64,000 nt of DNA. Source: Aromatoleum bremense. Lineage in GTDB: Bacteria > Pseudomonadota > Gammaproteobacteria > Burkholderiales > Rhodocyclaceae. The position numbers were made by a program, and so were the translations under genes. Location of the stretch: contig NZ_CP059467.1 in NCBI RefSeq assembly GCF_017894365.1, positions 62,001-126,000 of the forward strand, read 5' to 3'. Of the stretch, positions 11,352-34,128 are shown one piece after another; positions within the stretch are counted from its first letter, which is position 1, and each line of letters opens with the position of its first letter. The notes beneath the pieces were generated by a model. That model saw only the letters and a list, made by a program, of their open reading frames with translations. It ran no database searches and was not told the origin of the DNA.

Positions 11352-11424
11352 GATGCCTCCGTGAGGGAATCGCGGGAGCATCGGGCGGGACGGGCCGACG
11401 ACGACCCGCAGGGGTGGGAAGAGA

Positions 11425-14482: not shown

Positions 14483-15457
14483 ATGCCCACAACGAAGCCG
14501 AAAAACCTGTCTTTTGATTTTCGTTCGGGACAACCCATTCCGGCGTGGGTGCGCGAAGTGATCGACACGCATCTGGCCATCGAGGCCGAGGACGCCAGGA
14601 GTGCCGGATCCCTGGGTTTCCTGGCCCGCGCCCTGATCATCGCCACCATGCCGTACAAGGATCCCAAGACCGAGGTCTTCAAGCGTCAAAACGGCGACTT
14701 CCGCCTGCGGATCATTGCCGGTTACGAAGGAGGCATTCCCTACGGTATCTATCCGCGTTTGCTGATGTCGTGGGTATCGACCGAGGCCGTACGCAAGCAA
14801 ACGCCGGTGATCCAGTTGGGAGATTGCCTGCGCGCCTTCCTGCACGATGTAATGGATTTGCGCAGCAGCGGCGGCGGCGCCCGCGGGAGCGGCAGCCGCG
14901 TCACCGAGCAGATGAAGCGACTGTTTGGCTCGCTCATTACGGCGCACTATGCCGGCACCCAGCAGCAACAAGGCTTCCTGCTACGGAATGTGCTCATCGC
15001 CGACGAGCTGCAACTCGACGACGCCGTGCTGACCGGCCTGTGGACGCCACAACAGGCCCACGAAACCGGCCGATGGCAATCGCAGGTGCGGCTTAGCAGC
15101 GGGTTCTTTGAGGAATGCATCAACAACCCCGTGCCGATCGATCTGCGCGCTTACAAGGCGTTGCGCGGCTCGCCGCTGGCGATGGACGTCTACACCTGGC
15201 TTACCTACCGAATGAGCTATACGCAGCGACGCAGCCGCCCGATTCGCTGGGAACCGCTGATGTTGCAGTTCGGCTCCGATTACGGCACCGAGACCGCGCA
15301 AGCCGTGCGCGACTTCAAGAAGGCGTTTCTCAAGGCATTGAAGCTCGTACTTGTCGTCTATCCCCAGGCCTGTGTGGAGGTCCGCGATGTTGGGGTCGTG
15401 CTGCTGCCCTCTCGCCCGCACGTATCGCCGCTGCCGGTCCAGCGCGACCTGTTCTGA
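14483..15457 (+). CDS. repA: Plasmid replication initiator RepA (PF04796-like)
   Basis: A 324-residue protein of the plasmid RepA family: LGFLARALIIATMPYKDPKT, NGDFRLRIIAGYEGGIPYG and IYPRLLMSWVSTEAVRKQTP are the hallmark N-terminal winged-helix segments, with the C-terminal domain around IDLRAYKALRGSPLAMDVYT and WLTYRMSY. Such initiators bind iterons next to their own gene and open the origin with host DnaA. The ATG at 14483 follows GAGGAG. Six iterons and DnaA boxes lie immediately downstream, so this is a complete iteron replicon inside an otherwise ICE-like backbone. Confidence 0.85.
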   Translation: MPTTKPKNLSFDFRSGQPIPAWVREVIDTHLAIEAEDARSAGSLGFLARALIIATMPYKDPKTEVFKRQNGDFRLRIIAGYEGGIPYGIYPRLLMSWVSTEAVRKQTPVIQLGDCLRAFLHDVMDLRSSGGGARGSGSRVTEQMKRLFGSLITAHYAGTQQQQGFLLRNVLIADELQLDDAVLTGLWTPQQAHETGRWQSQVRLSSGFFEECINNPVPIDLRAYKALRGSPLAMDVYTWLTYRMSYTQRRSRPIRWEPLMLQFGSDYGTETAQAVRDFKKAFLKALKLVLVVYPQACVEVRDVGVVLLPSRPHVSPLPVQRDLF

Positions 15458-16727: not shown

Positions 16728-19700
16728 ATGGAAAAAATCGACCTTGAGAGCATTTCCAACAACGCGAAGGGAATGCCCGACTGTTGGCACATTGACGCCA
16801 GCGGCAAGTCCTCTCCCGAGGTTTTTCAGAAGCACTTCGGTCTTCCCCGAAGTCTGCGCAACGACAAGAAGCTCCTGGAGGTTTCAGTCTTGCGTCAAAA
16901 GCGTGTGCTGCACTTCATGTGGCGCTTGCTGCACTACCGCAACCTAGGGTTGCAGATCATGCTCATGGGCGACAAGCACGCCAGCCCCGAAGCGCATGCC
17001 ATGGCGCGCTATGACGAGGGCTGGCATCTGCGCAATGAGGAAGATCTCATCGAAGTCGCCAAACTGGATGAGGACGACCTTAATGCCAAGCTAACCGACC
17101 TGCTCGCGCAAAAGCGCGACAAGGAGTACAAACTGCAGCAGGTCAAGGTCCAGATGCTGGCCAACCGGGCCAACACAACCGTCGATCGCGCCTTCGAGGT
17201 CATGGGGAAGTGCGCCATCGAAACTTGGCTTCGCGCGCGAAACGACCTGGCGAATTGGGACAAGCTCGATGACCAAGAGAAGGAGCTCCTAGCTGAAGTC
17301 ATTTTCTGCGGCTACACCTTCTTTGGGAAAGCGGCCTTGGAGGACGTTGCAACCATCGAGCCTAGCGTTTTTGCTTACTGCCGGACCTTCCGGGGCTTAC
17401 CCCCGTTGGTGGTGAACATCGCTCCGGTGGTGCCGGCGGTTCAGGCCGTTCCCCACAAGCCTGTGGACGAACTGCCGACTAAGGTGTCCAAGGACGTGCC
17501 TGCACGTTCGGCCCTGGGCGATTCTACTGCACGTAGTGTGGTCGAGCCTGCATCCAAGATGGAACAGGCGGCCCCGGTCAAGACCGTGGCCAAACCCGCG
17601 GTGGTTCCTACCCAAGCAGCCCCCGCATCCGCTGCACCGAAGCAGGATGCGGCGTTGCCCGCAGGGGCACCAGCACCGAATTCATTACAGCAGCTATACA
17701 GCCTGATCGGCTCCCTGAGCAAGGAGGCCCTGGACAGCAACGACGTCGGTCCCGAGCAGGCCCAACAGATCCGAGACCTGCTGGATCAGCATCTGGAGCG
17801 TCTAACGGAGCTCTATGCGCGCCTGACGCCCGAGGACGTGCGTGCGCTGATCGAACGCTATAGCGATGCCGTCCTCAACATGGCCAAGGCTCTGGAGTTC
17901 GACAACAGCGACCAGCGCGATCTGGTGCCTGTGCTGCGCACGGCCTGGAAGATAACAGTGGTTTCCGCTCTGGAGGATGGGCGTCCGCGTGCCTGGTTCG
18001 AGGTGAACCTGAGCGAGCGCCAGCAACTGCCGGAGTTTGTGGAGCGCTTCGAGGCAGAACAGTCCCGGATTGCGGCGGCCACCAAGGAGATCGATGCGCT
18101 CAGGACCCAGCTGGCCCAAGCTAAGTTTACCGCCCGGGCGTCTCTCAAGGCCAAGGAAACCCACAATAACAACGAGATTAGCAGCGCTCACCAGGAGCTC
18201 GAGACGATCCGAGTGGAGGCGGCTCACTACCTGGTGCCTGAAGGGAGAACCCTCGACGACCTGATGGAAGACGAGTCTCTGCTGGCGGAGGTCAACATTG
18301 AGGTGGAGGGCTTTAACCCGCAAACCGTTCAGGACTTGCAGGCCGTCGTCTCGGCGTTCGAACCCTTGAAATTGAGCCCGCAGGCAGCCGTGCCAGCACC
18401 ATCCGCTGACACCTCGTTAGGGCCTGTGTCAGCCGCGGCTCCAGCTCCTTCTTCTTCCATTATTGAAGCCACCCAAGACGGAGACGAGGTCATTCAGCCG
18501 GAAGCCGAGGTGGCGGTTGTCCATGTGGAACTAGCACCTGTGCAAGCTCCTGAGGCGGAAGATCCCTCCGTTCCGGAAGCAGCCCCACAACCGGAGCACG
18601 AGCCGGAGCATCTAGTGGAACTTGCTTCCGTGGCCCCATCCGAGAAGGCACCCGCACAAGAGCCCGTCCCGGTCATAGAGCCCGAGAGGGAGGTTGAAGA
18701 GCCTCAAGAGGCTACCACCTTCGGTGTGGATGAGGCCTTGCGCCACTTGCATTGGGCTGAATCCAAGGAGGAGGCTCAGCAAGCTTTCCGTATTGCCTAC
18801 GAGCAGTATTCCCAGGTGCCTCGCTACATTGCGGAGGCCGTGGCCTTACACTGGATCGAGGCGGGCCACCTAAATGTGGCGTACCAAATCCTGCGCGACG
18901 CGAATGAGTCAACCCTGCTCTCGGATCGCGTGCTGGACGCCTCGCTCCTGCGCTCAGCCTTCTATGGCATGAACCTGTGGCCCAAGGACCGGGATGCACT
19001 GAGCTACACGCAGCGCGACCTGAACCTGCTCAACCACAAGGACCTGGAAGACCAGCTCGAGCGTAAGCCCACTGGCAGAGTCGTGCCTTACCTGTTGGTG
19101 TGTGCCACCTTTCAACCAGCACTGTTTGCAGGCGGGGAGACTCAGGCGGCAACCTTGCTCAAGCTCGCGGCCGACCACTTTGAAGACCATTTGAGTCGCC
19201 TGATCACGCACACGGCCGAGTTCACCTTGAGGGGCGGCCGGCTCGACCTAGACATCCTCCGCAATGAACAGGCCCAGGAAGTCCATCTGGCGGCGGCCAA
19301 ACTCCAAGATCAGGTCAATACGTGGGTCGAGCTCAACCAGCAGCGCACCAACCGTTGGCATGCCCTCCGCCTGGCCCTGCGCAGCTGCATCAAGCATCCG
19401 ATTATTGCCGAGGCCATTGCCGCCATCAAGGCGGGAGAGCAGGGCGATGCTGCCGCGGTGCGGCGCTTCCGTGACACGTACTCCGTGCATGCCGAGTCGC
19501 GCCGCCTGCTCGACGATCTGGTGGTCGAGATCCGCGCCGATGCCGTCGTGAGCGACCAAATCGACAGCCAAGCCTACACTACCTTCTGTCAGCAGATGGA
19601 TGGTCTGGTGTCCATCGCCCAAGCCTGGCTGCTGGAAGTGACGCCGGCCGACATGCGGCCAAACGAAGTCCAAGATTTCCTGCAGAAGTTCCACACCTTG

Positions 19701-22700
19701 CTGGGACGCTCCATCCACAACCTGGAAAGCCACCCGGAACACGCGGATCTGGAGCACCGCGCTGGCAGCGCCATCCTGCTCAAGCTGCTACGCAAGCTGC
19801 AGGCCGAGATCAAGACCGCATCTCACGACACCTGGCGTTTCGACCAGACAGATGCGACCTTCCGCTTGCCGGAGACGCTGGCGCGTCTGGACATGGGGCA
19901 CGTGGGAGTCGACCTGCGACTGGAATGGTTCGCCATGCGGTTAACCTCTCCCAACTGGCTGGCCGATATGCTGGATTTGGCCCGTCGCCACCAAGCGCAT
20001 TGGGTGCGGTTGCTGCTCCTGCGCCAGCTCGAGGAAATCAGCGGGCCGCGCGACGCCGAAATTGACAGCGTCAGCAACGACATTGCGGGCGTGCGCGCCG
20101 AACTCAAGAAGGCTATTGAGCAGTTCCGTAACCTCTCGCTGCAAGCGATGTCCGTGGACATCATCAGCGAAGGCGAGCACTTGGCAAACATTGACCAGGT
20201 TAATGAGTGGCTCGAAGAGCTTTCCGACCGCAAGCCCTACGTTGACGTCGCTGACATCGACGACGATGTTCAGCTTCGTGTTCGCTCCATGGACAAGCTG
20301 CTAAACAGCAGTGCTGCGCAGCTCGAAGAGGAGCTGAATCGGGAGCTGCTTAGCATCCGCGTCAAGGTCGGTCCCGCCGCCGTGCCTGAAGGCTGGGACA
20401 CACGTGCCCGCCATGCGCTGGACAAGCGCAACCTGTCGCTGGTGCGCGAACTGATCAACCAACTTAAGGAGCACAGCGAACGCAACGCCCGTCTTGTGGA
20501 GACTTCGCTGCTCGACAATGCCGAATTCTCTGCCTTCCTCCAAGCGGAGAACGGGCTCTACACCCTGCTGCACGAGCACCCAAGCCCCCGCGAAGCAGGG
20601 GATCTGGTCATCGATGAGCAGCCCGGCGGACTGAACTATGCCGTGCACAAGGCGGACTTCAACGACGTTATCGAGACTTTGCTCGAATGGCGCAGCAAGG
20701 GCAAGAACAAGAAAGCCACGCTGGAGATGCCCACATACGAAGGCATTGTGTCGGTGTTGCGGTTCCTAGGGATCGAGGTGGTCAACAAGATCGGCAAGAC
20801 CGAGAGGCTCAATAACTGTGAGTACACCCCGACAGGCGACTTCCGACGCCTCAAGGTCCGCATCTCGCGTCCCACCTTACCCAAGGGTTTCCCTTTATTC
20901 GAAGGGGACGTGGGATCGTCCCAGCCCCTGAACATCATCTTCGTGCAGGGGAACTGGAACCAGGTGGGCCTCATCGATCTGATCGAGCGCCACGGTCAGC
21001 CGGACCGCGCCATCCTCATGGTGGGGCAGCCCCTGAGTCCCGAAGAACGCAGAGGCTTCGCGGCCTTCTGTCGTGACCACAAGTGCACCATCTTCTTGCT
21101 CGATCCTGTGATCCTGTCCTACGTGGCCACCGCGCGCCATCGGCAGATGATGCTTGAGACCTTCTTGCGGGTCAGCGCCGCTTGGACCTCCTACAACCCG
21201 TACACTAAGGGGGATGCCCGTCTGCCGGCTCCGCCCGAGATGCGATTTGGCCGCGAGAACGACATCGCCTCGCTCGTCGAGCCTCGCGGCGCGGCTCTAG
21301 TCTACGGTGGCCGTCAGCTGGGCAAGACGACGCTGCTCAACGCCGCGGTCCAGGAGTTCAAGAAGCGCGATCCGCTGCAGAACCACGCCTTCTACATGCC
21401 TATGGATGGAATCTTCCAGCATGTGGTCGAGCGCGGGATCAACGTCAAGAAGCGTCTTTTCGAACAGCTCGTCGTCAAACTGATAGATGACGAGGTTCTA
21501 ACCAGCAACCTCAGCAATGCCCAGATGGATCCGGAAGACCGGCTGCGTCAGGAGTTTCTGCGCCCCGGCACCAAACGAGTCCTCTTTTGTCTGGACGAAA
21601 TCGATTCCGTCCTCAACAAGGACGCCGCGACCAACTTCGAGTTGGTGCGCTCCCTCAAGGCACTGGTCAACGACCCCCACCATCGCTTTCGCGTTGTGTT
21701 TGCAGGTCTCAACAACGTTAACCGCTTCCGGACGTACCCGAACGTCCCGCTGGAGCAGCTGGGCAGTCCGTTGGAAGTCGGTATCCTCTCATCCCAAGAT
21801 GCACGCAGTCTCATCCTTCAGCCGCTGACTGCCTTGGGCTATCGCTTTGAGGAGCCCGAACTGGTGGACCGCATTATGGCGTTCACCAACAGGCACCCCA
21901 GCTTGCTGCACATCTTCTGCAGCGAGTTGGTCGAGCAGCTGGGACGCGACCGCAGCCGCCAGGACGGTTTTCGCCTGATTCGCCAGAGCGACATCGAAAA
22001 CATCGAGAACAACTCAGATGTACGCCGACTCTCGGGCGAGCGCTTCGACATGACGCTTAACCTAGACAAGCGCTACACGGTCGCTGTCTACGGCTTGATT
22101 GCTGCCTACGACAAGGGCATTGGTAAGTTCACCGTGAGCAAAGCGCTCGAGGTGGCACGCACCTGGGTCCCCGAAGAGTTCGAGCAAATGAGCGAATCGG
22201 GCTTCGAGAGCCTGTTGCTGGAGCTTGTAGGTCTGGGTGTGCTTCGCGTTGACGACAAGGCCAAGCGCCAGTACGCCTTGCGCAATCAGTCCATCCTGCA
22301 GCTTATCGGCTCGATGGATGATATCCAGCACAAGTTGCAAGTGGCGATTGACGACCTCAAGAACCACGCCGAGGATGTGCTGACCTGCCACGCCACGTGC
22401 CCGGCGCCCAACCCCATCCCGTCCCCGCTGTCCTTGCAGGACGAGCGCATGATCCTGTCGGCCAAGCCGCCCGAGGGGGCACCGAAGTATTCGGTCTCGT
22501 TGATCATGGGTACACCGGCGCTGGGCATGACCCTTAAGGGGATGCAAGAGGGCTTCGGCGCCATCAACGAGTTCCAGTCGGGCACCCAGATGTTCAACTA
22601 CGAGACACGCGTCGTCACCGATACGGCGACGATGGATCTCAAGCGCTTCTCGGATACGATCCATACGGCCATCGGGGCCTGGGCCTCGGCCAATCCGGCG

Positions 22701-23465
22701 GTGGTGCTGATTTCGCTCGAGGATTGTTCCTCGATCGATCGGATCATGGACCTGATCAGCATCGCCAATGAAAAGGCTTCGCAAGCGACAAGGCTCAAAC
22801 ATCCATTGCGTCTGGTCTTCCTGCTGGGCGCGCGCGCCATGTGGAGCTGGCATGCCCACTCTTGGCTCACGACCGCGCCCAATGAGATCGGTGGCCAGGT
22901 GGAGCTCAACCGCTGGACGCGCCACGCTTGCGAAGGCCTGCTGGAGCAGCAGGGTATGTCGGTGACCTCCGAGCAAGGCGACATGCTTCGCAGTGCCACC
23001 GAAGGTTGGTATGTCTTCCTGATGAAGTTTATCGAGGTGCGCAAGAAGAAGGCGTCGGCTTCTAGCTTCAACGATTTCTCCAAGGTTTTCACGCCGCTGG
23101 TCGAGCTGCCACCCAAGGAATTCGAGAAGTTCCTCCTGCAGTCGGGCATGAATTGCGTGGAATGGTCCTTGCCTCTGGCAGGCAAACTCAAGGAGTTCGA
23201 GGCGCTTAGCAACTTCTCCAAGGAAGACCTGCAGACCGCTATCGGATTCATGGGCGAGGAACAGCCTGATTTTCCCATCACGCCCGAGCAGTCGGATGCC
23301 GTGGTGCGTTGGTGGGCCGCATTGCGGGTCATTGAGGTCAACACCAAGGCGAAATCCAAGGCCGCCCACCGGGAAGGCAAGATCACCTACAGCTTCATTC
23401 GCTCGATCCAGCGTGCGATCGGCGAGCATGTCAATCAAAGTGGCGCCAAGGAAGCGCGGCCGTGA
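16728..23465 (+). CDS. Giant AAA/STAND-type ATPase leading the DISARM-like operon
   Basis: A 2245-residue protein not found in canonical DISARM. Visible layout: an N-terminal helical region (1-225), a Pro/Ala linker (228-315), helices with a coiled coil (about 330-505), an acidic Pro-rich linker (548-661), a long helical-repeat middle (660-1400), a P-loop ATPase with Walker A GGRQLGKTTL (about 1527-1536) and Walker B VLFCLDEID (about 1618-1626), a winged-helix-like segment (about 1785-1855) and a C-terminal helical domain. The architecture resembles STAND-type sensors and the large ATPases of BREX, so a role as sensor or loader is reasonable but unproven. The ATG at 16728 is preferred; a TTG at 16701 is in frame. 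It overlaps the next gene (GTGA), so the proteins are made together. Confidence 0.75.
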   Translation: MEKIDLESISNNAKGMPDCWHIDASGKSSPEVFQKHFGLPRSLRNDKKLLEVSVLRQKRVLHFMWRLLHYRNLGLQIMLMGDKHASPEAHAMARYDEGWHLRNEEDLIEVAKLDEDDLNAKLTDLLAQKRDKEYKLQQVKVQMLANRANTTVDRAFEVMGKCAIETWLRARNDLANWDKLDDQEKELLAEVIFCGYTFFGKAALEDVATIEPSVFAYCRTFRGLPPLVVNIAPVVPAVQAVPHKPVDELPTKVSKDVPARSALGDSTARSVVEPASKMEQAAPVKTVAKPAVVPTQAAPASAAPKQDAALPAGAPAPNSLQQLYSLIGSLSKEALDSNDVGPEQAQQIRDLLDQHLERLTELYARLTPEDVRALIERYSDAVLNMAKALEFDNSDQRDLVPVLRTAWKITVVSALEDGRPRAWFEVNLSERQQLPEFVERFEAEQSRIAAATKEIDALRTQLAQAKFTARASLKAKETHNNNEISSAHQELETIRVEAAHYLVPEGRTLDDLMEDESLLAEVNIEVEGFNPQTVQDLQAVVSAFEPLKLSPQAAVPAPSADTSLGPVSAAAPAPSSSIIEATQDGDEVIQPEAEVAVVHVELAPVQAPEAEDPSVPEAAPQPEHEPEHLVELASVAPSEKAPAQEPVPVIEPEREVEEPQEATTFGVDEALRHLHWAESKEEAQQAFRIAYEQYSQVPRYIAEAVALHWIEAGHLNVAYQILRDANESTLLSDRVLDASLLRSAFYGMNLWPKDRDALSYTQRDLNLLNHKDLEDQLERKPTGRVVPYLLVCATFQPALFAGGETQAATLLKLAADHFEDHLSRLITHTAEFTLRGGRLDLDILRNEQAQEVHLAAAKLQDQVNTWVELNQQRTNRWHALRLALRSCIKHPIIAEAIAAIKAGEQGDAAAVRRFRDTYSVHAESRRLLDDLVVEIRADAVVSDQIDSQAYTTFCQQMDGLVSIAQAWLLEVTPADMRPNEVQDFLQKFHTLLGRSIHNLESHPEHADLEHRAGSAILLKLLRKLQAEIKTASHDTWRFDQTDATFRLPETLARLDMGHVGVDLRLEWFAMRLTSPNWLADMLDLARRHQAHWVRLLLLRQLEEISGPRDAEIDSVSNDIAGVRAELKKAIEQFRNLSLQAMSVDIISEGEHLANIDQVNEWLEELSDRKPYVDVADIDDDVQLRVRSMDKLLNSSAAQLEEELNRELLSIRVKVGPAAVPEGWDTRARHALDKRNLSLVRELINQLKEHSERNARLVETSLLDNAEFSAFLQAENGLYTLLHEHPSPREAGDLVIDEQPGGLNYAVHKADFNDVIETLLEWRSKGKNKKATLEMPTYEGIVSVLRFLGIEVVNKIGKTERLNNCEYTPTGDFRRLKVRISRPTLPKGFPLFEGDVGSSQPLNIIFVQGNWNQVGLIDLIERHGQPDRAILMVGQPLSPEERRGFAAFCRDHKCTIFLLDPVILSYVATARHRQMMLETFLRVSAAWTSYNPYTKGDARLPAPPEMRFGRENDIASLVEPRGAALVYGGRQLGKTTLLNAAVQEFKKRDPLQNHAFYMPMDGIFQHVVERGINVKKRLFEQLVVKLIDDEVLTSNLSNAQMDPEDRLRQEFLRPGTKRVLFCLDEIDSVLNKDAATNFELVRSLKALVNDPHHRFRVVFAGLNNVNRFRTYPNVPLEQLGSPLEVGILSSQDARSLILQPLTALGYRFEEPELVDRIMAFTNRHPSLLHIFCSELVEQLGRDRSRQDGFRLIRQSDIENIENNSDVRRLSGERFDMTLNLDKRYTVAVYGLIAAYDKGIGKFTVSKALEVARTWVPEEFEQMSESGFESLLLELVGLGVLRVDDKAKRQYALRNQSILQLIGSMDDIQHKLQVAIDDLKNHAEDVLTCHATCPAPNPIPSPLSLQDERMILSAKPPEGAPKYSVSLIMGTPALGMTLKGMQEGFGAINEFQSGTQMFNYETRVVTDTATMDLKRFSDTIHTAIGAWASANPAVVLISLEDCSSIDRIMDLISIANEKASQATRLKHPLRLVFLLGARAMWSWHAHSWLTTAPNEIGGQVELNRWTRHACEGLLEQQGMSVTSEQGDMLRSATEGWYVFLMKFIEVRKKKASASSFNDFSKVFTPLVELPPKEFEKFLLQSGMNCVEWSLPLAGKLKEFEALSNFSKEDLQTAIGFMGEEQPDFPITPEQSDAVVRWWAALRVIEVNTKAKSKAAHREGKITYSFIRSIQRAIGEHVNQSGAKEARP

Positions 23466-26266
23466 AACCCACCTTCCCCGCAACCACGCCAGTCCCCAAA
23501 GGCTGGCGTGGTTTGGTTGAAGAGTCCTGGCCGGCGGTCACAGCGTCGGAGTTGCTGCGCGGCGGCGACGAGATCTGGCATGCCGAAGGCTTGAGCACGC
23601 CCAAGGAAGAAGAGGCCGTGGCCTTGGCCGCCATGGGGCGGTTGCTGCGCTACGGCCAGTCGGTTCACCTGAACCTGCCCATTGGCCGTGAACCAACCTT
23701 GCCCCGTCTGGCCTTCTACCTTCACCGCCTGCGACTGGATGCCGCCGGCGGGCTGATGCGGTCGGCCTGGCTCAATCCAGTGACCATTGCCCACCGCAAT
23801 GACCTGATCGTTTTCGGACGACCGCGGCGCATGCTGCGCGACTTCAGCACCTCGGCCGTGATGCGGCCGATGGTGGTGGATACCATCCGGCCTTTGGCTC
23901 CGTCGGAATTCCAGCGGACCTTGCTGGTGAACGGCCACGGGGACCTTCTGGAAACTCTGAAACTACTCTCCGAAAAGAGTCTGCCTTTTGCCATAGTGGT
24001 GCAGGTAACGCCCCAAGGATGCGATGGAAACTCGGTAAGCATAATCAAGGTCCTGCCTGATTTCTTTCCTGGCATACCCATCGTGGCCCTAGGCTACACT
24101 GGTCAGGTGCTCAGCGAGCCCTTGCCGATGCATACCTGGAACACTCGTATCGGAGATGTGGTTGCCTTGCGCCATGCCTCATGCGAGCCGCTGACCTGCA
24201 CCCCAAACGTCGAGGTGGTTGCCGCGCGCGACCCTGTGATGGATGCCTTCGTCAAGAAGCTGGGCTTCATGGTCTGGAACTTGAAGCGCAAGATGGAGGA
24301 AACCGGAGGGCTCTCGCGGGAGCTCTCCGCCTTGATGGCGGTCGATCGGGCCCTGCGCTGCCTCAATGTACCCCTGCCCGTGCACGAGCAAGGCACCTTG
24401 CGCCATGTACGTGGCGGTCGCTACCCCGTTCGCATGATTGAGTCGTGGCTGGAGATCGCCTCTCGCCTGAAGGGGCGACGCGGCGACATCCAGGAATTGC
24501 ACGCCCAGATTCTGGTTATGACGCGCAACATGATGAAGGACCTCACCGAGGCCAAGCCTGGGAGGGGCGAAGCCCTCATCCAGTTGTGTGGCCAGGTCTT
24601 GAACAGCGATCAGCGGGCCTGCGTGCTAGTGGGTGGCCGGCGCGACGCCGAGATTCTGCAGAGCTACATCGAAAGGCGTCTCGGACCAGAGGCGATCGAG
24701 AACATCACGGTCTCCCAGATGGACGGCTCAACGGCGGTGCCACCCGAAGGGATCGATCTGGCCATCTACGCCGGAGTGCTTTATCCCTCGCGCATCCATT
24801 GGCTGGGCTTGGCCGCCAAGCGCAAACTGGTGCTATGCCACCCGTTCGAGCAGGAATGGGTTTGCCAGCAGATCGATCGCTGGTGGCAGGGCTATGCCTT
24901 GCCCAGTGCCCCTACGGGCGACAAGCAGCGCCTGTGGTCGCTCGAATGGCCAGCCCAAGGGTGCTTGAAGGATGCGCTCATCGACAACGAAGCCTTGTGC
25001 GGCAACGAAACGTCCTTCACCTTGTTCGAGATCGATGGCGAATACCCGCGCCAGATGCGTGTAGCCCAACTCGAAGCCACCCGCGGTTTCAAAGACTGGC
25101 TCAATGTGCTTATGACCGAGCCGCTGCCCGTGCAGCGCGACGATGAGATTGCACCGGAGCCCACGCGCGATGTCGTCGTGCTGCACTTGGAGGGGCAGTC
25201 CGAGCCCATCCGTTGGGCCGTGAACCACCAGATTCTTCGCCTTCAGGACGATGAATTGGTCGTCTGCACCGCCAGGGACCTGGAAGTCGGTAACGAACTG
25301 GTCATGCTTGTCAGCAGCGATGAGCGCGTCGCCACACAGCGCGATCTCTTTGACATGTTCGTGCAGAACAACCATGGCCTATCCCAGACCCTGCGCATCG
25401 CCGAAAAATGGCAGGAGTTTGTGGATGCCGGCATGCAGAAGTTCGAAACCGCCATCGAATTGAACAGCTATCTTAAGTCCAAGCGCTACGAGGTACATAA
25501 CAACACAGTGCAAAACTGGGCCCACGGCGGCGTGATCGGGCCAAAGGACCCGGCGGCCATCCGGTTGCTGGCTGAACTGGCTGAGATTCCGAGTGCAGAC
25601 AAGATGACTACAATGGTGGCCAATGCGATTCAGGTCATCCGTGCCGAGCATCGCCGCATCGGTTCGGACCTGCGGCGGGCCATTGCGGTGTCGCGCAACC
25701 GGGACGTCTCGGCAGTTCAGGTCGGCTCGCGGCGGTTTTCGCGCGACGTCTTTGACGCCATGGTACAAATCAGCCGGGTGGTGGGCATCGAGCGCCCTTC
25801 CCTAGAGCAGTCAAGCTTTGCCCAGCGACGCTCCCTAAAGGACCTAGCTCTGGACTTTGCAATCGAGCACGGCAACAAAGTCCTTTTCACCTCCGGATGC
25901 GAGCGTTCCATGAGCCGTTCGGCTTACGCCGATCTACAGGCTTTTGGCGAGGTTCTCAAAGTGCTGGTCGATGGGTTCTACCCCATGTACGCCAAGCACA
26001 GCAAGTCACTCAAAGACGTCGAGGGCATGCTGGCCCCTATTCCTGCATCCTATGCTGGAGGCATGTCCGATGTCACCAAGGGCAAGCACGAGCAGCACTA
26101 TTTCCGGCAATACGAAGGCCAGCGTGTGGACATCTCGCGACACATCAAGCTTGGTCGGGCATACGACCCGCGCTACACACTGCGTCTGTACTTCCACTGG
26201 GATGCGGAACGCGCCAAGGTCGTGGTGCACCACGCCGGCGAACACTTGCCGACCCTGACTAGCTAA
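23462..26266 (+). CDS. drmE: DrmE-like DISARM protein
   Basis: A 934-residue protein starting at a GTG that overlaps the previous stop. The order beside drmA, drmB and drmC and the C-terminal region (YFRQYEGQRVDISRHIKLG, then YFHWDAERAKVVVHHAGEHL) suggest DrmE, the marker of class 2 DISARM, whose molecular role is unknown. A helix-rich segment near residues 650-720 (SYLKSKRYEVHNNTVQNWAH) looks like a small DNA-binding region. The N-terminal half contains alternating beta/alpha segments like an inactive helicase (GGRRDAEILQSYIERRLG, then DLAIYAGVLYPSRIHW), without a Walker A motif. The family assignment is from memory of DrmE and from context; a profile search should decide. Confidence 0.6.
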   Translation: MKPTFPATTPVPKGWRGLVEESWPAVTASELLRGGDEIWHAEGLSTPKEEEAVALAAMGRLLRYGQSVHLNLPIGREPTLPRLAFYLHRLRLDAAGGLMRSAWLNPVTIAHRNDLIVFGRPRRMLRDFSTSAVMRPMVVDTIRPLAPSEFQRTLLVNGHGDLLETLKLLSEKSLPFAIVVQVTPQGCDGNSVSIIKVLPDFFPGIPIVALGYTGQVLSEPLPMHTWNTRIGDVVALRHASCEPLTCTPNVEVVAARDPVMDAFVKKLGFMVWNLKRKMEETGGLSRELSALMAVDRALRCLNVPLPVHEQGTLRHVRGGRYPVRMIESWLEIASRLKGRRGDIQELHAQILVMTRNMMKDLTEAKPGRGEALIQLCGQVLNSDQRACVLVGGRRDAEILQSYIERRLGPEAIENITVSQMDGSTAVPPEGIDLAIYAGVLYPSRIHWLGLAAKRKLVLCHPFEQEWVCQQIDRWWQGYALPSAPTGDKQRLWSLEWPAQGCLKDALIDNEALCGNETSFTLFEIDGEYPRQMRVAQLEATRGFKDWLNVLMTEPLPVQRDDEIAPEPTRDVVVLHLEGQSEPIRWAVNHQILRLQDDELVVCTARDLEVGNELVMLVSSDERVATQRDLFDMFVQNNHGLSQTLRIAEKWQEFVDAGMQKFETAIELNSYLKSKRYEVHNNTVQNWAHGGVIGPKDPAAIRLLAELAEIPSADKMTTMVANAIQVIRAEHRRIGSDLRRAIAVSRNRDVSAVQVGSRRFSRDVFDAMVQISRVVGIERPSLEQSSFAQRRSLKDLALDFAIEHGNKVLFTSGCERSMSRSAYADLQAFGEVLKVLVDGFYPMYAKHSKSLKDVEGMLAPIPASYAGGMSDVTKGKHEQHYFRQYEGQRVDISRHIKLGRAYDPRYTLRLYFHWDAERAKVVVHHAGEHLPTLTS

Positions 26267-26300
26267 GCCCATCCTCCACATCAACCTTGATCCTTTGCCT

Positions 26301-27086
26301 ATGACACCAGCTCAGACACTGACCTACAAGGACAAGATGGCGATCTCCGAGCGTCTGCTCGAACTCATGCGCATGCGCCTCACCGGCAAGACTTCGCTGG
26401 GTTTGTGGCCTGAGGGCCAAGTTTCGGCGCAGGACCCAGCGGCGATTTCGCTAGTGGGCGGGCTGGCGCCGTTGCCTGACCCGGACTACCATCGCGAGCA
26501 GCCCCCGAGCGCCATGGGCATGGTGCTGATGGTCGAGCCCGACGGCCAAGGAAAGGTAATCGTCTCGGTCAATGGGCGGTTTGACGTCACGCACCGATAT
26601 GTGCCGTCCCTGCAGACCATGAAAGAGCACGTACAGGTCGGCGCCGACGGCGAGCGCCATCAGCAGAAGCTCCCTGACTGCTTCATTCGCTTCTCTGTCC
26701 AGTTCTCGGACGTGACCTTCACCTTGGACACGGCCCATTTGAACCAGTGGTCCGAGGAGAAGCTTGAGCCCTTGCTCAGATCCTTGCACAAGGTTTGGGA
26801 GACCGATCCGCGCATTTTCCGGATCTGCCAAGTCAACGACAAAGGCTACATCAACACGACCATTCCCTGGGGCAAGGACGACTGCGCCGGCGACCAGGAA
26901 CTGGCCGACCTGGTGGCACGCAACCTCTTCATAGGCGACAGCATCCTGTTGCACGATGTCAGGCTGCGGGCTCGCCTGCGCCCTCCTCCGCCCAATTTTG
27001 TGTGCAATGATTCGCGCTATCTTCTGGAGCTTTACCTCCAGAACAAGATTGAGTCCGTAAACTGCTGTAAATCGAGTGGCAGGTAG
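26301..27086 (+). pseudogene. drmA: drmA, 5' portion, interrupted by IS256-family insertion
   Basis: The ATG at 26301 begins MTPAQTLTYKDKMAISERLL. The true coding sequence runs to 27046, after which the insertion sequence begins; the frame then reads into the element and stops at 27086, giving about 248 native residues plus 13 foreign ones. These residues are the N-terminal domain of a DrmA-type helicase and carry no helicase motifs on their own. Removing the element and one copy of the 8-base target duplication rejoins ...LYLQN with NTDSMTGRAY in frame. Without excision, this is a truncated, probably inactive product. Confidence 0.82.
27039..27046. repeat. Target-site duplication, left copy
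   Basis: CAGAACAA directly before the insertion sequence, repeated exactly at 28430-28437. Eight bases is the usual duplication length for IS256-family elements and fixes both ends of the insertion. Confidence 0.9.
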
Positions 27087-27154
27087 CCACCGCTTCAGTT
27101 CGGTACGATGACGTTGTCGAAGCGTTGATCAACCGAAGAAAGGCAGGCGAAGCG

Positions 27155-28372
27155 ATGGCTGGATATGATGTTAGCGTAGGGCGTGATTTGTTGCCAGGGC
27201 TGTTGAGCGGTCAGGACGGGCTGGCGAAACTGGTAGAAGCGGTTCTGAACCAGATACTGGAGGCGCAAGTGACAGAAGCGTTGGGAGCGGAGCGGCACGA
27301 ACGCACGGAAGAGCGCGCCGGCTACCGCAACGGCACGCGAGCACGCACGCTCTACACACGGGTGGGGCCGGTGACGCTGCTGGTGCCGCAGACGCGGGAT
27401 GGCAGCTTCTCGACAGAGATCTTCAAGCGTTACCAGAGGAGCGAGCAGGCGTTTGTACTGGCGCTGATGGAGATGGTCGTGCAAGGCGTCTCGACGCGGA
27501 AAGTATCGGCGATCACCGAGGAGCTGTGCGGCACGAGCTTTTCCAAATCGACGGTCAGCGCGCTCTGCGCCGGACTGGACGGACGTGTCGGTGCCTTCAA
27601 CGAGCGACGGCTCGAAGGCGATTACCCGTTTGTTCTGGTCGATGCGCTGTTCATCAAGAGCAGGGAAGGCGACCGCGTCGTATCGCGCGCCGCACTGGTC
27701 GTGTCGGGCATCAGGAGTGACGGCTACCGCGAAATTCTCGGCGTGAAGATCGGCGACACGGAGAGTTTCGCCACTTGGGATGAGACGTTCCGCTGGCTCA
27801 AAGGCCGGGGGTTGAAAGGCGTCATGTTCGTCGTTTCCGACAGCCACGGCGGGCTGACGCAGGCGGTCGCAAAGCATTTTCAGGGGGTGACCTGGCAGCG
27901 CTGCCAGGTGCATCTGATGCGCAACATTCTGGGGAGCTGCAGCGCCAAGATCCGGGCCGACGTGGCGGCGGCAGCCAAACTCGTCTTCCAGGCGGCGGAC
28001 ATGGCCGAGGCCAAGCGCCGGCTCGCCGAATTCGTCGAGCGCTTCGAGAAAACGGCGGCAAAGGCCGTGGCGTGCATCGAGGAAGGTTTCGCCGACGCAA
28101 TGGCGGTCATGGCGCTGCCAGAGAAATACCGGCGGCGGCTGCGCACGACCAACATGCAGGAGCGGCTCAACGAAGAGATTCGCCGTCGCGAGCGGGTGAT
28201 CCGCATCTTCCCCAACGACGAATCCGCCCTGCGCCTGATCGGCGCCCTGTTGGCCGAGCAGAACGAGGTCTGGCAGGAAAGACGATATCTGGATATGGAT
28301 GAATTCGCGGAGTGGGTCGCCGCCCGCGCCGCCGCCGGCGAGAGCAACAACGTTGTTGCTCTCGCCGGATAA
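27155..28372 (+). CDS. IS256-family (mutator-type) transposase
   Basis: A 405-residue DDE transposase. The acidic triad is visible as VLVDALFI (about residue 168), VVSDSHGG (about 230) and NMQERLNEEIRRRERVIRIF (E, about 340), with the IS256/mutator signature HLMRNILG between. The ATG at 27155 (MAGYDVSVGRD) follows AGGCGAAGCG and fits the family; the open frame upstream to 27125 adds 10 residues. The reading frame is intact, so the element could be active. The 3' end of the gene includes a 34-base perfect palindrome. Confidence 0.94.
   Translation: MAGYDVSVGRDLLPGLLSGQDGLAKLVEAVLNQILEAQVTEALGAERHERTEERAGYRNGTRARTLYTRVGPVTLLVPQTRDGSFSTEIFKRYQRSEQAFVLALMEMVVQGVSTRKVSAITEELCGTSFSKSTVSALCAGLDGRVGAFNERRLEGDYPFVLVDALFIKSREGDRVVSRAALVVSGIRSDGYREILGVKIGDTESFATWDETFRWLKGRGLKGVMFVVSDSHGGLTQAVAKHFQGVTWQRCQVHLMRNILGSCSAKIRADVAAAAKLVFQAADMAEAKRRLAEFVERFEKTAAKAVACIEEGFADAMAVMALPEKYRRRLRTTNMQERLNEEIRRRERVIRIFPNDESALRLIGALLAEQNEVWQERRYLDMDEFAEWVAARAAAGESNNVVALAG
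28335..28368. repeat. 34-base perfect palindrome at the transposase 3' end
   Basis: The two 17-base halves (28335-28351 and 28352-28368) are exact reverse complements, centred on AACGTT, covering the last codons of the transposase (ESNNVVALAG). It could work as a terminator or limit read-through into the element. Such an arm inside coding sequence is unusual. Confidence 0.85.
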
Positions 28373-28429
28373 AAACCATTCGTCATCATCCGGGCTGAAG
28401 AGAATTTACAGCAGATTTTGGACTTGACT

Positions 28430-28437
28430 CAGAACAA
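28430..28437. repeat. Target-site duplication, right copy
   Basis: CAGAACAA directly after the insertion sequence, identical to 27039-27046. Confidence 0.9.
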
Positions 28438-31249
28438 CACCGATTCCATGACGGGCCGTGCCTACGGCCTGCTGCGCCCGAGCTTGCTCGATGTGGGGTT
28501 CGAGGCGAATCTGCTCATTGGCCGTCAATTCGACGTCCCGCACCGCCTGCAGCCCGAAGACTACCGCTACCAACTCGAGGATGGGGTGGCTGGATACGGT
28601 GTCACCTGTGCGATCGAGAAGGTTAGCGAGCAACGCTTCCGAACCAATTCGATGCCGGTCTTTGCACAGGCGAGGGTAGATGCTCCGAGCCCGAAAGATG
28701 TCGGCATGCCTTTGCCCGCGAGCTTCCAGCTGCTCAAGGACCAGCCGCTCGAGGTGCTCAACGGCTTCCTGTCGGCACTCAAGAACTACCGCTCCGTCTG
28801 GGACAGCGTGGAAGCCGACCTGGGCCAGGCCGGCAAGACGGCCGAGCTCGATGCGGTGCGCAAGGACCGCCAGGACTACGACCGGGAGATCGACCTGATC
28901 GAGGACGGCATTGATCTCTTGCGAGAGCACGATGGCTTGCGCCGGTGTTTTTCCCTCATGAACGAGGCCATGAAGCGTGCCATCGAGTTGCAAGGCAAGG
29001 CGTTCGATGGCTGGCATCTGTTCCAGCTGGGCTTCGTCCTCATGCAGGTGAGGTCGGTGTACGAGCGCCACGCGCTCGTACATGAGCGCAAATGTGTCGC
29101 CAAGACCGCCGATGTGCTCTGGTTCTCCACGGGCGGCGGCAAGACCGAGGCCTATCTGGGCATCATCGCCTTTGGCATGCTCTATGCCCGGCTGCGGGGT
29201 CGCCTCTACGGCACCACCGCCTGGATGCGGTTTCCGCTGCGCATGCTTTCGGCTCAGCAGTTCCAGCGCCTGTCCTACGTTGTGGCGCAGGCCGAAGTGC
29301 TGCGTTGCAGGGAGGGCTTCCAGGGGCACCCCTTCACAGTGGGCTACTACACGGGCAGCGGCACACCGAGCCGCATCAGCCGCTCGGACGTCAAGGGGGC
29401 CGACATCTGGTTGCCGGAAATCGATGAAGACAGTTTGGATCGCTACCGATTCATCACCGACTGTCCTTACTGTGGGCAACGGGGTTCGGTTCACATGGCC
29501 CGCGACATCGACAAGGTCCGGATGTTGCACCGTTGCTCCAGCGTCGATTGCTGGAGCAATACGAAGGCGAAAGAAGGCGCTTACGGAGAGGGCATCGCAG
29601 GCGAAATCGGGATTTTCGTCAGCGATGAGGAATGCTACCGATACCTTCCCACGGTGCTGGTGGGCACGGTCGACAAACTCGCCGTGATCGCCCATAACGA
29701 GAAATTCGCGGGCTATCTGGGCGCGTTTCGGCATTTCTGCCCAGAGCACGGCTTCACGGCGGATGCCAAGTGCAAGCACCAGCGCATCCGCAAGGTCTTG
29801 CAGGGCAATGGCTACGAATCGGCTGACTGCGGCAACAACTCGCGCACGAGCAAGATCCGAACGATGCAGTTGGCGCCCATGCTGGACCCGGGCTTCAGTT
29901 TCCTGATCCAGGACGAACTGCACTTGCTGCGCGAGTCGCTGGGCAACTTCGATGCCCACTACGAAACCCTGTTGCAGACCCTGCAGGTGGGGCATGGCGG
30001 CCAGGCCTCCAAGGTGCTGGCGGCCACAGCCACGATAAAGGACTTCCAGAACCACATCCTGCACCTCTACATGCGTCCAGGCCGACGCTTCCCGTCTCCC
30101 GGGGCGCTGCGAGGCGAATCTTTCTATGCCCGTATCAGCCGGGATGGGGATGAGCCCTTGGTGCGGCGCTGGTTCGCCGGTGTATTGCCCTTGAGTTTCA
30201 GCCGCGGCGGGACGGAGAAGGCCGCCGCCGAGGTCGCCACGCGTTATCTGGACCAAATCGACGAGTGGTTAGAAGGTTTGGCGGCCCAAGATCCACAGAT
30301 CCTGGCCCAGATCGGGATAAGCCCTGAACGAGCTGGCGTGGTACTGGATTACGTCGGAAAATTCCTCAACACTGACCTGATCTACGCCAACCAGAAGCGC
30401 CAGACGACCGCCATCATGGAGCACCTAGACAACGTCAATGCGCGTGATAACAAGGCGCGGTCATACCGGTTGTTGGACGGTCAGACCCCCTTGGATAACA
30501 TTCTGGACGCCATCCACCAGGTCGAGAACAAAGCGCCCAATGATCCGATGCGCCATCTGGTCGCCACCAGCGTGGTTTCGCACGGCGTTGATATTGCTGA
30601 ATTGAACTTCATGGTGCTCGATGGCTGGCCGAGGTCGACCGCTGAATACATCCAGTCGTCCGCCCGCAGTGGACGGGTACAGCCGGGCATCGTGATGTCG
30701 ATCTTGAGCTCGGGCAAGCTGTTCGAATCGGGGGTCTTCCTCAACTTCGATGATTACCATTTCTTCCTCGACAAACTGGTGGACTCGGTCCCGATTAACC
30801 GCTTTGCGCCCAATGTGATGCAGCGCACGCTGCCCGGGGTGTTCACCGCGGTGATCCTGAACTGGGCCAAGTTCCAGCCAGGTTGGGGCGTGATGCTCAA
30901 TCGCTACGCCAGTCAGCTGCACAAGGTGCTCAACGACGCCACAAGCGATGCCCGTCAGCGGTTGCGCGAGATGCTGGTGCGCACACTCGATGTGCCGGCA
31001 GATGTCGTCCATGAGTTCGACATACGGGTGCTGGCGTCCTTCAAGATGCAGTTGGAGGATGAGGTCGACCGAGGTCTGCACCGCCTGCAGAACCTCAATG
31101 CGGCGAGTGCCGACAAGGACTTGGGGACCGCCCTGGAGTCGATCTACCAATTCCCGCCGATGCGTTCCTTCCGAGATATCGAAAACCAGGTCGAGGTCGT
31201 CTCGGCCGGCCTCAAAGAAAAACGCACCTTGAGTGCTCTGGGTCGTTAA
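28438..31249 (+). pseudogene. drmA: drmA, 3' portion with all helicase motifs
   Basis: The remaining 937 codons of DrmA, in the same frame as the 5' portion once the insertion is removed (restored protein 1185 residues, usual for DrmA). It contains Walker A TGGGKTEAYLG (about residue 480 of the restored protein), the DEAH-like box IQDELHLL (about 740), motif III as LAATATIKD, and motif VI SSARSGRVQPG (about 990). DrmA is the DNA-translocating helicase of DISARM, acting with DrmB. An ATG at 28448 or TTG at 28418 could allow translation of this part alone, but no good ribosome site precedes them, and the N-terminal 248 residues would be missing. Confidence 0.85.
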
Positions 31250-31261
31250 GGGGGGACAGAG

Positions 31262-33331
31262 ATGTCAGAGAACATCGAACAGGAACTGGTCCAGAACAGC
31301 CGCATCTTCTACGAAGCGTTTCTGCCTGGTGCTGTGACGCGCCTACGCAACCAGGCCTTGGCCATGGTCGTGGGCGTGGCCGACAAGGAAGATGCCCTTG
31401 AAGGGCTGGACCGCACCCAGTTGGTGGATGCGGTGCGCAAGTTCCTTGCGGACTGGAAAATCGCTGGCGGCTCGGTCGATGCCCTGGTGGAGGAGGCAGC
31501 GGAACGCAATGAATTCCGGGTTCAGGCACCGTCCGAGATCTACGTGACGCCGTTCCCCCTAGTTCTGCGGTGCCAGACCTGCGGGGCGCTGGAAAACCAC
31601 GACAAGCCGCGACGCCAGCATGAGCACACCTTGGCTACCACCTACACGCGGACCTCCGGCGGAGATGGCAGCTCCAAGGCCTTTATCCGTTGCTCCGAGA
31701 AGGGCTGTGGGGGGCGTATGCAACAAGTGCCCTTTGTGGTGGTACACCGCTGCGGCCACATCTCGGCGATGAACACGCCGGCAGCCGCGCGCGGGGTTAA
31801 CCGCCTGGGACTGCGCCACAACAACGGGATGTTCCGCCAGAACACCTTCTTCGACCTCGCGAGCAACGACAACGTCTCGGCCGCCTACACGGAGATGTGT
31901 CCGACCTGCTCGGTCAGCCACCAGCCCGACCCCTCGATGCTTCAGAAGGGCACCGCTGTCAGTGGCGGCGACGCCTTCTTCCCCCAGGTGATCCAGTTCG
32001 TGGCGCTATCCAAGAAGCCCGGCGAGCTGGTCTCCAGCGTCCAGTCCGAACTGGTCCGCTTGCCCGAGAGCACCTTATCCGGTCGCGCAAAGGACCTCGC
32101 CGAAGGCGTGGTCTATGGCCTGCTGGGCTGCATTGACAGCGAGGCTCTGCAAGCCCAACTGCTGCAAATCCTAGAGGGCGGCGAAGTCAATGCCGATGAC
32201 TTGGCCAAGATCCAGACCGAGCGCGAGAACCTGGAGAAGGAAATCGCAATGCTCGATGCGCTAATTGCGAACGGCACGCCACTCGAGTCCGTGCGTGATG
32301 CATCCAAGGAGCGCCTGTCCAAGCTCATCAGCAAAATGGGCGCTGCTGAAGGGACCTTCGTAGACGTTCGCAACTACATCGACAACGATACGGTCCTGTT
32401 AGACCTGATTCGCCAGCGTCGCACGATGGAAGCCGTGCTGCTGCGTCACGACGTTGGGCGCCAAGGCGTGGCCGAGTCAATCGAGAGCACCACCGATTCA
32501 GTGGTCAAGTTCAGCCGCTCCGAAGACTGGAAGCATGTCCAGTCCACCTATGGCATCCAAGACATCGCACACATTCCCGACTTGAAGGTGGTCTTGACCG
32601 CGGTGGGCTTCACGCGCGAGAAGCGCGAACCTGAGCGCACCCAAGGCGAGATCCCTGTCAAGCTCAACCCGTTTGAGGATCGGATCCGCTCGTCTGCCAA
32701 GGGCAAGGCCGTGCTGTATGCCTTCAGCGCCCAAACAGAGGCTTTGTGGATCCGGCTTGACCCCATAAAGGTCTTGCAGTGGTGCGTCAAGCACGCCGGC
32801 TGGGATGCGCCACCGCCTGAGGCGCTGCAGTCACGAGAGCGAGCCCAGGCCCATTTGCTTGCGCTCAGCCCCGCCTTGACCGCGGCCCCGGGCTCGGCTA
32901 CCGAGCTCACCAAGACGATTGGGCTGTCTGCAGCAGCGCCGTTTCACTTGATGCACACCATGTCGCACTCGCTCATGCTGACCGCGCGCCGCCACAGCGG
33001 CTACGACAGTCAGAGCCTGACCGAGTACCTGCTGCCAATGGATTTGAGCTTCCTGATCCACGTGACCTCGGTGCAAAACTATACCGCCGGCGGTTTGTTG
33101 ACGCTGTTTCAGCACTACCTGCGACGTTGGTTCGAGGACGCATCCTTGCATGCGTTCAACTGCGCGTTCGATCCGATCTGCTCGGATGTCGGCTCGGCTT
33201 GCCCCGGTTGCATTCAGATACCCCGGGGGTGTGAGACCTTCAACGCTGGGGTGTCCCGGTCCTACCTACACGGTGGTTACGTCGACAAGACGCAGAGCCT
33301 GTGGGCGCCCACGGGCTATTGGCAAAGCTGA
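31262..33331 (+). CDS. drmB: DrmB, DUF1998 protein of DISARM
   Basis: A 689-residue protein with a good GGGGGGA ribosome site. Zinc-binding pairs are visible at CQTCGALENHD (about residue 104), CSEKGCGGRM (about 144), CPTC (about 213) and CPGCIQIPRGCE near the C terminus (about 646), with a coiled-coil segment in the middle (NADDLAKIQTERENLEKEIA). The C-terminal FHLMHTMSHSLMLTARRHSG is the DUF1998 signature. DrmB forms a complex with the DrmA helicase in DISARM and probably gates its access to DNA. The gene lies 12 bases after drmA, so it may suffer polar effects from the insertion upstream, unless the element provides a promoter. Confidence 0.88.
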   Translation: MSENIEQELVQNSRIFYEAFLPGAVTRLRNQALAMVVGVADKEDALEGLDRTQLVDAVRKFLADWKIAGGSVDALVEEAAERNEFRVQAPSEIYVTPFPLVLRCQTCGALENHDKPRRQHEHTLATTYTRTSGGDGSSKAFIRCSEKGCGGRMQQVPFVVVHRCGHISAMNTPAAARGVNRLGLRHNNGMFRQNTFFDLASNDNVSAAYTEMCPTCSVSHQPDPSMLQKGTAVSGGDAFFPQVIQFVALSKKPGELVSSVQSELVRLPESTLSGRAKDLAEGVVYGLLGCIDSEALQAQLLQILEGGEVNADDLAKIQTERENLEKEIAMLDALIANGTPLESVRDASKERLSKLISKMGAAEGTFVDVRNYIDNDTVLLDLIRQRRTMEAVLLRHDVGRQGVAESIESTTDSVVKFSRSEDWKHVQSTYGIQDIAHIPDLKVVLTAVGFTREKREPERTQGEIPVKLNPFEDRIRSSAKGKAVLYAFSAQTEALWIRLDPIKVLQWCVKHAGWDAPPPEALQSRERAQAHLLALSPALTAAPGSATELTKTIGLSAAAPFHLMHTMSHSLMLTARRHSGYDSQSLTEYLLPMDLSFLIHVTSVQNYTAGGLLTLFQHYLRRWFEDASLHAFNCAFDPICSDVGSACPGCIQIPRGCETFNAGVSRSYLHGGYVDKTQSLWAPTGYWQS

Positions 33332-33342
33332 ACATAGACGAT

Positions 33343-34128
33343 ATGGCTAACACACTCCGAAGCATGCTCGTCGCTGGCCTAGCAGATCATATGCGGGTCT
33401 TGCCAGAACCCGTCGCGCGCAACCTCGCCAATGAGCTGACTTGTGAAGTCAGCACTTATGTCGCAGGAAGTCGTGGAGCCTGTCATCAGCTGCCCTGTTT
33501 TCCGCTGGTGACCTGGAACGTCTTTACCGTGGGGGTGCCCTGGGAAGCATTTGGCAATGCCCACGGCGGTCTTAATAACAGTGGCGTTGCCTCGGCGGTT
33601 AAGGCTCTGTGCAGTGCTCCCGCTCACATGGATGCCCAATTGGCAGCGCAAGCAGGGGCTTCAGGTCTCTGGGGAGGGAGTCTGCTGGTGGCGCTCGGCA
33701 AGATTCTCGGGGGAGTCAGTCACGACCTCATTATCTTTTCGCCTTACTGGCGCACTCATGGCGTGCAATCGCTACTTGCCGCCGCGGGCCGCAAGAGCTA
33801 CCCCGGCGTGAATGTATTGGTCTTCACACAACCCAGGTGCAGGATGAAGTCTGGCGATGAAGAGGGCCTAGCCTTCTTTATCGACATGATGAAGGCAGGC
33901 GGGGCTTCTGTGTTGGTGATGGTGCCCTCGGCGCACGATGGCCTAACCCCGATCCTGCATGCCAAGTTGATCATTGCCGACGGCAAGACGGGCTATGTCG
34001 GTAGTGCTAACTTCACCCAATCAGGTCTGGATCACGGACTGGAGGCCGGTGTTTTAGCGGAAGGCGAAATCGCAAATGCGTTCTCGGGTTGGTCAAAAGC
34101 CATTGCGGCCGCCTGCGAGCCTTGGTAA
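33343..34128 (+). CDS. drmC: DrmC, phospholipase-D-type nuclease of DISARM
   Basis: A 261-residue protein with one HKD motif: ILHAKLIIADGKTGYVGSAN (about residues 203-222), followed by FTQSGLDHGLEAGVL. A single HKD fits DrmC, which is thought to act as a dimeric nuclease. The ATG at 33343 lies 11 bases after the drmB stop; the open frame starts earlier, inside drmB. It is the last gene of the operon. No methyltransferase gene (drmMI or drmMII) follows or precedes it. Confidence 0.85.
   Translation: MANTLRSMLVAGLADHMRVLPEPVARNLANELTCEVSTYVAGSRGACHQLPCFPLVTWNVFTVGVPWEAFGNAHGGLNNSGVASAVKALCSAPAHMDAQLAAQAGASGLWGGSLLVALGKILGGVSHDLIIFSPYWRTHGVQSLLAAAGRKSYPGVNVLVFTQPRCRMKSGDEEGLAFFIDMMKAGGASVLVMVPSAHDGLTPILHAKLIIADGKTGYVGSANFTQSGLDHGLEAGVLAEGEIANAFSGWSKAIAAACEPW

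Follow-up and report, generated by a model that had tools for sequence, protein, structure and literature searches.

The window analysed here, a 64,000-nucleotide stretch of Aromatoleum bremense (G000:C1:62001-126000 of a 4.38-Mb single-contig genome), carries on its plus strand an operon that, judged from its sequence, is a deep DISARM-related lineage and not described DISARM. Canonical DISARM consists of a drmABC core and a methyltransferase marking self DNA (drmMI with drmD, or drmMII with drmE), and it is seen as acting like a restriction system, with methylated self DNA spared. We propose, with confidence just short of even, that the operon represents an anti-phage lineage related to DISARM, in which the self-marking methyltransferase is replaced by a giant STAND NTPase and a DrmE-like adaptor, the copy found here being broken. 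This proposal is built on the gene set, its co-inheritance, the STAND/ORC-type ATPase motifs of the giant protein, the failure to find a linked methyltransferase in those related loci that were examined, and a drmA gene split by an insertion sequence (IS). The operon comprises the following features:

16728-23465, plus strand: giant protein, putative STAND-type NTPase, 2245 residues; ATPase at about residues 1505-1800, Walker A at 1527, Walker B at 1620
23462-26266, plus strand: DrmE-like protein, 934 residues; predicted SF2-helicase-like fold at 15-523, DrmE_C at 593-742, HEC-07-like C-terminus at 804-933
26301-27046, plus strand: 5' part of drmA; 79% identity over 251 residues to the start of Collimonas DrmA
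27039-27046 (left copy) and 28430-28437 (right copy): 8-bp target-site duplication
27047-28429: IS256-family element in drmA, 1383 bp; transposase open reading frame (ORF) 27125-28372 on the plus strand
28430-31249, plus strand: 3' part of drmA, bearing the helicase motifs; 87% identity over 939 residues to Collimonas DrmA
31262-33331, plus strand: DrmB-like protein, 689 residues; PADLOC DrmB E = 1e-23
33301-34128, plus strand: DrmC-like PLD protein, 275 residues; PLDc_2 41.9 bits against a cut-off of 27; HxKxxxxD motif kept

The original prediction had described five consecutive plus-strand genes with GTGA coupling or short gaps, led by a 2245-residue P-loop ATPase. All five are present, the ATPase lies at the head of the operon, its gene and that of the DrmE-like protein overlap by GTGA, and short gaps or overlaps run through the whole operon. 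The operon is not intact as it had been read: drmA is in two pieces with an IS element between them, and the frame taken for DrmA (28418-31249) is its 3' part only.

The names of the last four genes are otherwise backed by PADLOC, which matched DrmA (E = 4e-112), DrmB and DrmC (E = 2e-12) and, weakly, DrmE (E = 1e-4), and by the Pfam domain DrmE_C (59.5 bits, cut-off 27). The PADLOC matches of the operon proteins were DISARM, HEC-07 and weak PsyrT, SngC, MkoB and ZacB only, with BREX, Druantia and Dpd not among them; Pfam gave no family for the DrmB-like protein. The DrmA profile matches the solved Serratia DISARM DrmA (7s9v, E = 6e-80) from position 301 on, the first 300 positions remaining unmatched. 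None of the NCBIfam cut-offs was reached by DrmA (DrmAS 326 vs 950, scanned with the uninterrupted Collimonas gene), DrmB (DrmB_fam 69.6 bits vs 240), DrmC (DrmC_I 46 vs 133) or the DrmE-like protein (DrmE_fam 72 vs 80, DISARM_DrmE 35 vs 250). The hidden Markov model searches that had been suggested as a check thus gave a divided answer. Because all four proteins stay under the NCBIfam cut-offs and no linked methyltransferase was found, we file the operon as DISARM-related and not as DISARM. The expectation of a new DISARM class or a related but separate system was right as to the kinship, which takes the form of a DISARM-related lineage.

A DrmA tree was built from 39 rows, 19 from the clade and 20 controls (omitted were L031, a near-copy of L030, L033 and L037 (partial), and L056 (broken)). 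The DrmA clade of the operon forms a single branch with a support of 100/100. The rows closest to it, those of Rubrobacter and Streptomyces, are joined with a support of 82/92, an unsure placement with long branches. Separate DrmA- and DrmB-like genes, a DrmC-like PLD protein and the DrmE_C domain are shared with DISARM class 2 (drmE, drmMII, drmABC), from which the operon differs in that no linked methyltransferase was found and a giant NTPase is added. ARMADA, described in a preprint (PMC12458937, excerpts), is likewise a DISARM relative with a YprA-family helicase, but neither ARMADA partner occurs among the operon proteins according to PADLOC and Pfam, and DrmA and DrmB are separate genes here. 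No paper on a DISARM-like system headed by a giant STAND ATPase was found in the open-licence literature, judged by titles and the beginnings of abstracts.

The DrmE-like protein probably has a helicase fold without ATP hydrolysis, as its sequence and predicted structure suggest; 82 of its 84 homologues carry no Walker A motif. When canonical DrmE proteins of other loci were compared with the DrmE-like profile by hhalign, strong matches (98.5% for L051 and 90.7% for L023) covered the C-terminal part only, and matches were weak or missing for L053 (66.6%), L052 (35%) and L055 (0.2%). Homology of the N-terminal half to canonical DrmE is therefore not supported. An Acidovorax plasmid (L050:11383-12456) encodes a 357-residue protein that corresponds to the HEC-07-like C-terminal portion of the DrmE-like protein; DrmA is absent from that stretch.

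The giant is most likely a STAND NTPase, since a fragment containing its ATPase region (residues 1380-1870) scores above the Pfam nSTAND1 cut-off (31.0 vs 27.1 bits) and the predicted fold resembles archaeal ORC/STAND ATPases, plant NLRs and CED-4 in Foldseek comparisons. A match to nSTAND1 at E≤0.01 was obtained for 9 of 15 members of the giant family, and Walker A and Walker B are kept in all 91 giants. The profile of the ATPase region weakly matched Cdc6 (E = 0.005) and PH0952 (E = 0.007) among PDB sequences; the whole-giant profile matched nothing useful there, and no PADLOC model matched the giant. In its predicted structure the core resembles plant and animal immune sensors, and the sensor role suggested by the original prediction would fit such a STAND/ORC-like ATPase. 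The nSTAND1 match and the STAND/NLR/CED-4-like predicted fold are features in common with STAND NTPases including AVAST/Avs, from which the giant differs by the position of the ATPase in the C-terminal third of its 2245 residues and by its tie to DrmE-DrmABC. AVAST, BrxC and DUF499 were absent from the structural (VIA) match rows seen for the giant, no direct comparison having been made. The BrxC/DUF499 ATPases of BREX have a STAND/ORC fold, too (PMC12839542, excerpts).

We then asked how far these proteins are inherited together. The giant has 176 homologues at E≤1e-3, and 70 of the best 120, which were listed, have at least 41% identity ("close giants"). The DrmE-like protein has 84 homologues, and the Collimonas DrmA has 322, of which the best 120 were listed. 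Proteins were paired by identical length of the longest contig of each cluster, an indirect test that gives a lower bound. By this test, at least 31 of the 70 close giants are paired with a DrmE-like protein, at least 22 with a close DrmA, at least 12 with both and at least 41 with at least one of them. The distances between the paired proteins are correlated (Mantel rho 0.957 for giant-DrmE, n=31; 0.969 for giant-DrmA, n=26 including four distant pairs; 0.85 for DrmE-DrmA, n=25), and for none of the three protein pairs did any of 999 permutations reach the observed value. Locus tags are consecutive for DrmE (02630) and DrmA (02631) of P. hiiakae and for the same two proteins of the metagenome-assembled genome (MAG) RLY71 (2274 and 2273), and nearly so for the giant (07033) and DrmA (07035) of P. 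nemoris. The co-occurrence that the original prediction had proposed to look for is thus found, in both the pairing and the Mantel correlations. Four giants of about 29-32% identity are paired with DrmAs of about 51-54%. Many members of that DrmA group carry Pseudomonas names, which suggests that the lineage extends past Betaproteobacteria; a search of the genus found nothing in 4 Pseudomonas genomes, and a search of 274 genomes by a 16S pattern gave none either, the Pseudomonas DrmAs having about 50-54% identity. Besides this genome, which is counted in each sample, no full-length giant was found among 399 (order), 369 (class) and 278 (family) genomes, with partial matches in 5, 6 and 2 other genomes, respectively. 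The giant matched 24 plasmid records, and at least 80% of it was covered in 2. The viral_contigs collection held no close giant, one distant giant and 17 DrmA loci of other clades, which served as controls, and phage records gave no match to the DrmE-like protein. For 22 of the 70 close giants, by hand count, the longest contigs measure 15.7-18.9 kb, perhaps because of assembly breaks at the cassette borders.

A discrete cassette is also what the alignment borders indicate. In blastn, homology to the Collimonas locus (L002) starts at 16720, 8 bases ahead of the start codon of the giant, and stops at 33331, where drmB ends; the drmC of Collimonas sp. OK307 is matched along roughly its first third. 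No flanks common with L002, Cupriavidus oxalaticus (L009), a Methylobacter MAG (L003) or Burkholderia arboris (L010) were found by blastn.

The IS element in drmA has inverted ends and encodes a transposase of the Mutator/IS256 family (Pfam Transposase_mut, E = 6e-125). The blastn alignment to Collimonas covers 18723-27046 and picks up again at 28430, its two ends sharing 8 Collimonas bases, and the flanks 27039-27046 and 28430-28437 are identical and both correspond to one set of 8 bases in the uninterrupted drmA of Collimonas (1183 codons). The insertion in drmA is therefore 1383 bp long and flanked by a perfect target duplication. In the 5' part, homology stops at 27046 and the frame runs into the IS, with a stop at 27086. 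Since the element splits drmA, the operon copy in this strain is probably dead. A gene resembling a transposase, with rve and HTH_21 domains (L009:30349-31524), interrupts the drmA of C. oxalaticus as well, so that an insertion is present in two of the three drmA-bearing loci examined. Among close DrmA clusters, 57 of 61 have at least 1100 residues, and disruption of drmA is therefore not the rule.

To look for a linked methyltransferase, we used phmmer with five queries, the annotated DNA methyltransferases of five plasmid DrmA loci, and found none in the four related loci (L002, L003, L009, L010) and none in the window (METHYLTRANSFERASE). A motif screen gave none in three loci (L002, L009, L010), with a DUF6094 protein as the sole match in the window; this screen recovered only two of four positive-control loci. 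Pfam scans of ten flanking ORFs, eight from L009 and two from L002, picked from more, revealed no methyltransferase either. Among the control DrmA loci, five of seven on plasmids have an annotated DNA methyltransferase, to which phmmer adds Rubrobacter (six of seven, with none in Haloplanus), and 10 of 17 viral loci have one by phmmer. In this small test, homologous loci consistently carrying a methyltransferase, which would have spoken against the original prediction, were not seen. Its statement that the operon contains no methylase, internally or at its ends, is correct for the operon itself, a methyltransferase-like DUF6094 gene lying 5 kb away; nothing that we found bears out its further suggestion that self/non-self discrimination works differently.

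According to our proposal, DrmA-DrmB would act as a DNA translocase and DrmC as a nuclease, and the giant would hold this machine off in resting cells. An infection cue would be sensed via its large helical regions and lead to nucleotide exchange, shape change or assembly, as in NLRs. Through the DrmE-like protein, the giant would load or license DrmAB on invading DNA, and self would be spared since the trigger is absent, not by DNA marking. Activity against phages, assembly into a physical complex, the nature of the trigger and the licensing of DrmAB are inferred. Published DISARM DrmAB is activated by 5'-overhang DNA, its ATPase being reduced on methylated DNA, and DrmC appears non-essential (PMC9142583, excerpts). 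Where no mark is made, a core that has little sequence specificity would need some other brake, for which the STAND protein is a candidate.

Several observations weigh against the giant as a substitute for marking. The whole-locus sample is small and has little power, drmA being present in L002 and L009 only and IS-split in the latter. The full-length giant stays under every Pfam cut-off (ATPase_2, 27.1 vs 33.2), its ATPase fragment is also above the AAA_22 and AAA_14 cut-offs, and the top Foldseek rows are other AAA+ proteins, with ORC level with or above STAND proteins. A Haloplanus plasmid (L051:10291-17904) has DrmE, DrmA and probably DrmB in a row, with neither a methyltransferase nor a giant found in the fetched stretch; the absence of a methyltransferase therefore need not mean STAND control. 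The B. arboris and Methylobacter loci have the giant and the DrmE-like protein with no drmA in the fetched stretch, and hence the giant-DrmE pair is not always tied to DrmABC. Finally, a predicted DUF6094 methyltransferase with an NPPY motif is encoded 4.97 kb upstream of the operon (10248-11756, minus strand), and one C5 and three N4/N6 methyltransferase matches exist elsewhere in the genome (those families searched), the nearest C5 match about 1.6 Mb off.

These methyltransferases would be in line with a methylation-based DISARM variant whose mark is made in trans by a host or mobile-element enzyme, the giant having another role, e.g., loading. Marking in trans may be compatible with the data, and the ATPase of published DrmAB is less stimulated by methylated DNA (PMC9142583, excerpts). 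However, the DUF6094 protein had no tblastn match in L002, L003, L009 and L010, the nearest C5 match is distant, and reliance on unlinked genes suits poorly a cassette moving between genera, which makes this explanation doubtful. The two loci without drmA, the other partners of distant giants, and a DrmE cluster of 16 sequences named from B. cenocepacia (44% identity) would agree with two adjacent systems, a self-sufficient giant-DrmE pair beside a DrmABC module. We regard this as unlikely, since the distances of giant and DrmA are correlated (0.969, 26 pairs), the genes are joined by short gaps and overlaps, DrmE itself is a DISARM component, and the giant of L003 is split over two frames. 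Ongoing decay of an ordinary class 2 DISARM after loss of its methyltransferase could account for the IS-split drmA here and in L009 and for the loci in which drmA was not found, but seems quite improbable considering the length of 57 of 61 close DrmA clusters, the single DrmA branch at 100/100, the missed NCBIfam cut-offs (by wide margins for DrmA, DrmB and DrmC) and the co-variation of giant and DrmA.

If control by the giant in place of a mark is true, a stable lineage with DrmAB-DrmC and an NLR-like switch, but without a linked methyltransferase, would uncouple machine and mark, and what licenses DrmAB would become a directly testable question. The giant belongs to a wider family. Its profile matches all 19 proteins scanned (1,157-3,133 residues; chosen as giant hits), in L047, L048 and L049 over ATPase pieces only. 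The giant of L014 adjoins a pPIWI-RE protein (PADLOC PprPIWI, E = 2e-44), and giant and pPIWI-RE are fused (PADLOC E = 9e-45 to 3e-120) in proteins of about 3,060-3,130 residues in L016 (8119-17421), L045 (5434-14835) and L046 (8784-17975). A PLD-SNF2 helicase follows the giant in Brasilonema (L011), and a smaller second gene does so in Salinibacter, Streptomyces (L013), Thiodictyon and Agrobacterium. With such different partners beside the distant giants, the giant resembles a control unit that can be reused. The likeness to pPIWI-RE systems lies in these adjoining or fused NTPases; the effector differs from that of the operon, the pPIWI-RE system being described as a triad with REase and DinG (PMC3702460, excerpts). 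It is possible, at a confidence somewhat below even, that the giant STAND superfamily is an exchangeable NLR-like control unit for DISARM-type DrmABC, for pPIWI-RE in other Proteobacteria (at times within a single chain of about 3,100 residues) and perhaps the cyanobacterial PLD-SNF2 helicase, infection sensing replacing DNA marking. The same sensor family beside or fused to pPIWI-RE would then link NLR-like immunity with two nucleic-acid-targeting machines.

The second gene of the distant systems was considered as a detached C-terminus of the giant, which was rejected (hhalign probability 0.2%); several distant giants match the C-terminal part of the giant profile themselves. A HEPN identity is unproven, with only a short R..AH-like motif seen by eye, and family scans gave no match in Pfam (L012, L013), PADLOC (L012, L014) or NCBIfam (L012, L044, L045). 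The giant of Salinibacter (L012:11659-31383) is plasmid-borne, with type I-E CRISPR genes about 11 kb away.

The surroundings of the operon, within a chromosome-sized contig, look like a conjugative element, with a backbone of TraI_2, TraD/TraG-like, TraC, DUF3275 and DUF6094 genes (span 10248-57311). Two further genes were assigned by Pfam:

14483-15457: RepA_C gene
39450-40373: ParA gene

CBASS-type defence genes are found on the same element (region 344-3907), encoding a SMODS nucleotidyltransferase (344-1360) and a Cap17-like_N protein (2741-3907). After the giant-DrmE pair of B. arboris (L010:24492-33886), which lacks drmABC, come a WYL regulator and a Prok-E2_A/Prok-JAB ubiquitin-like cluster. 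Two genes upstream of the Collimonas cassette match ABC-3C-type families, CTD7 (just under the cut-off) and DUF3732, the latter a family linked to ABC-3C.
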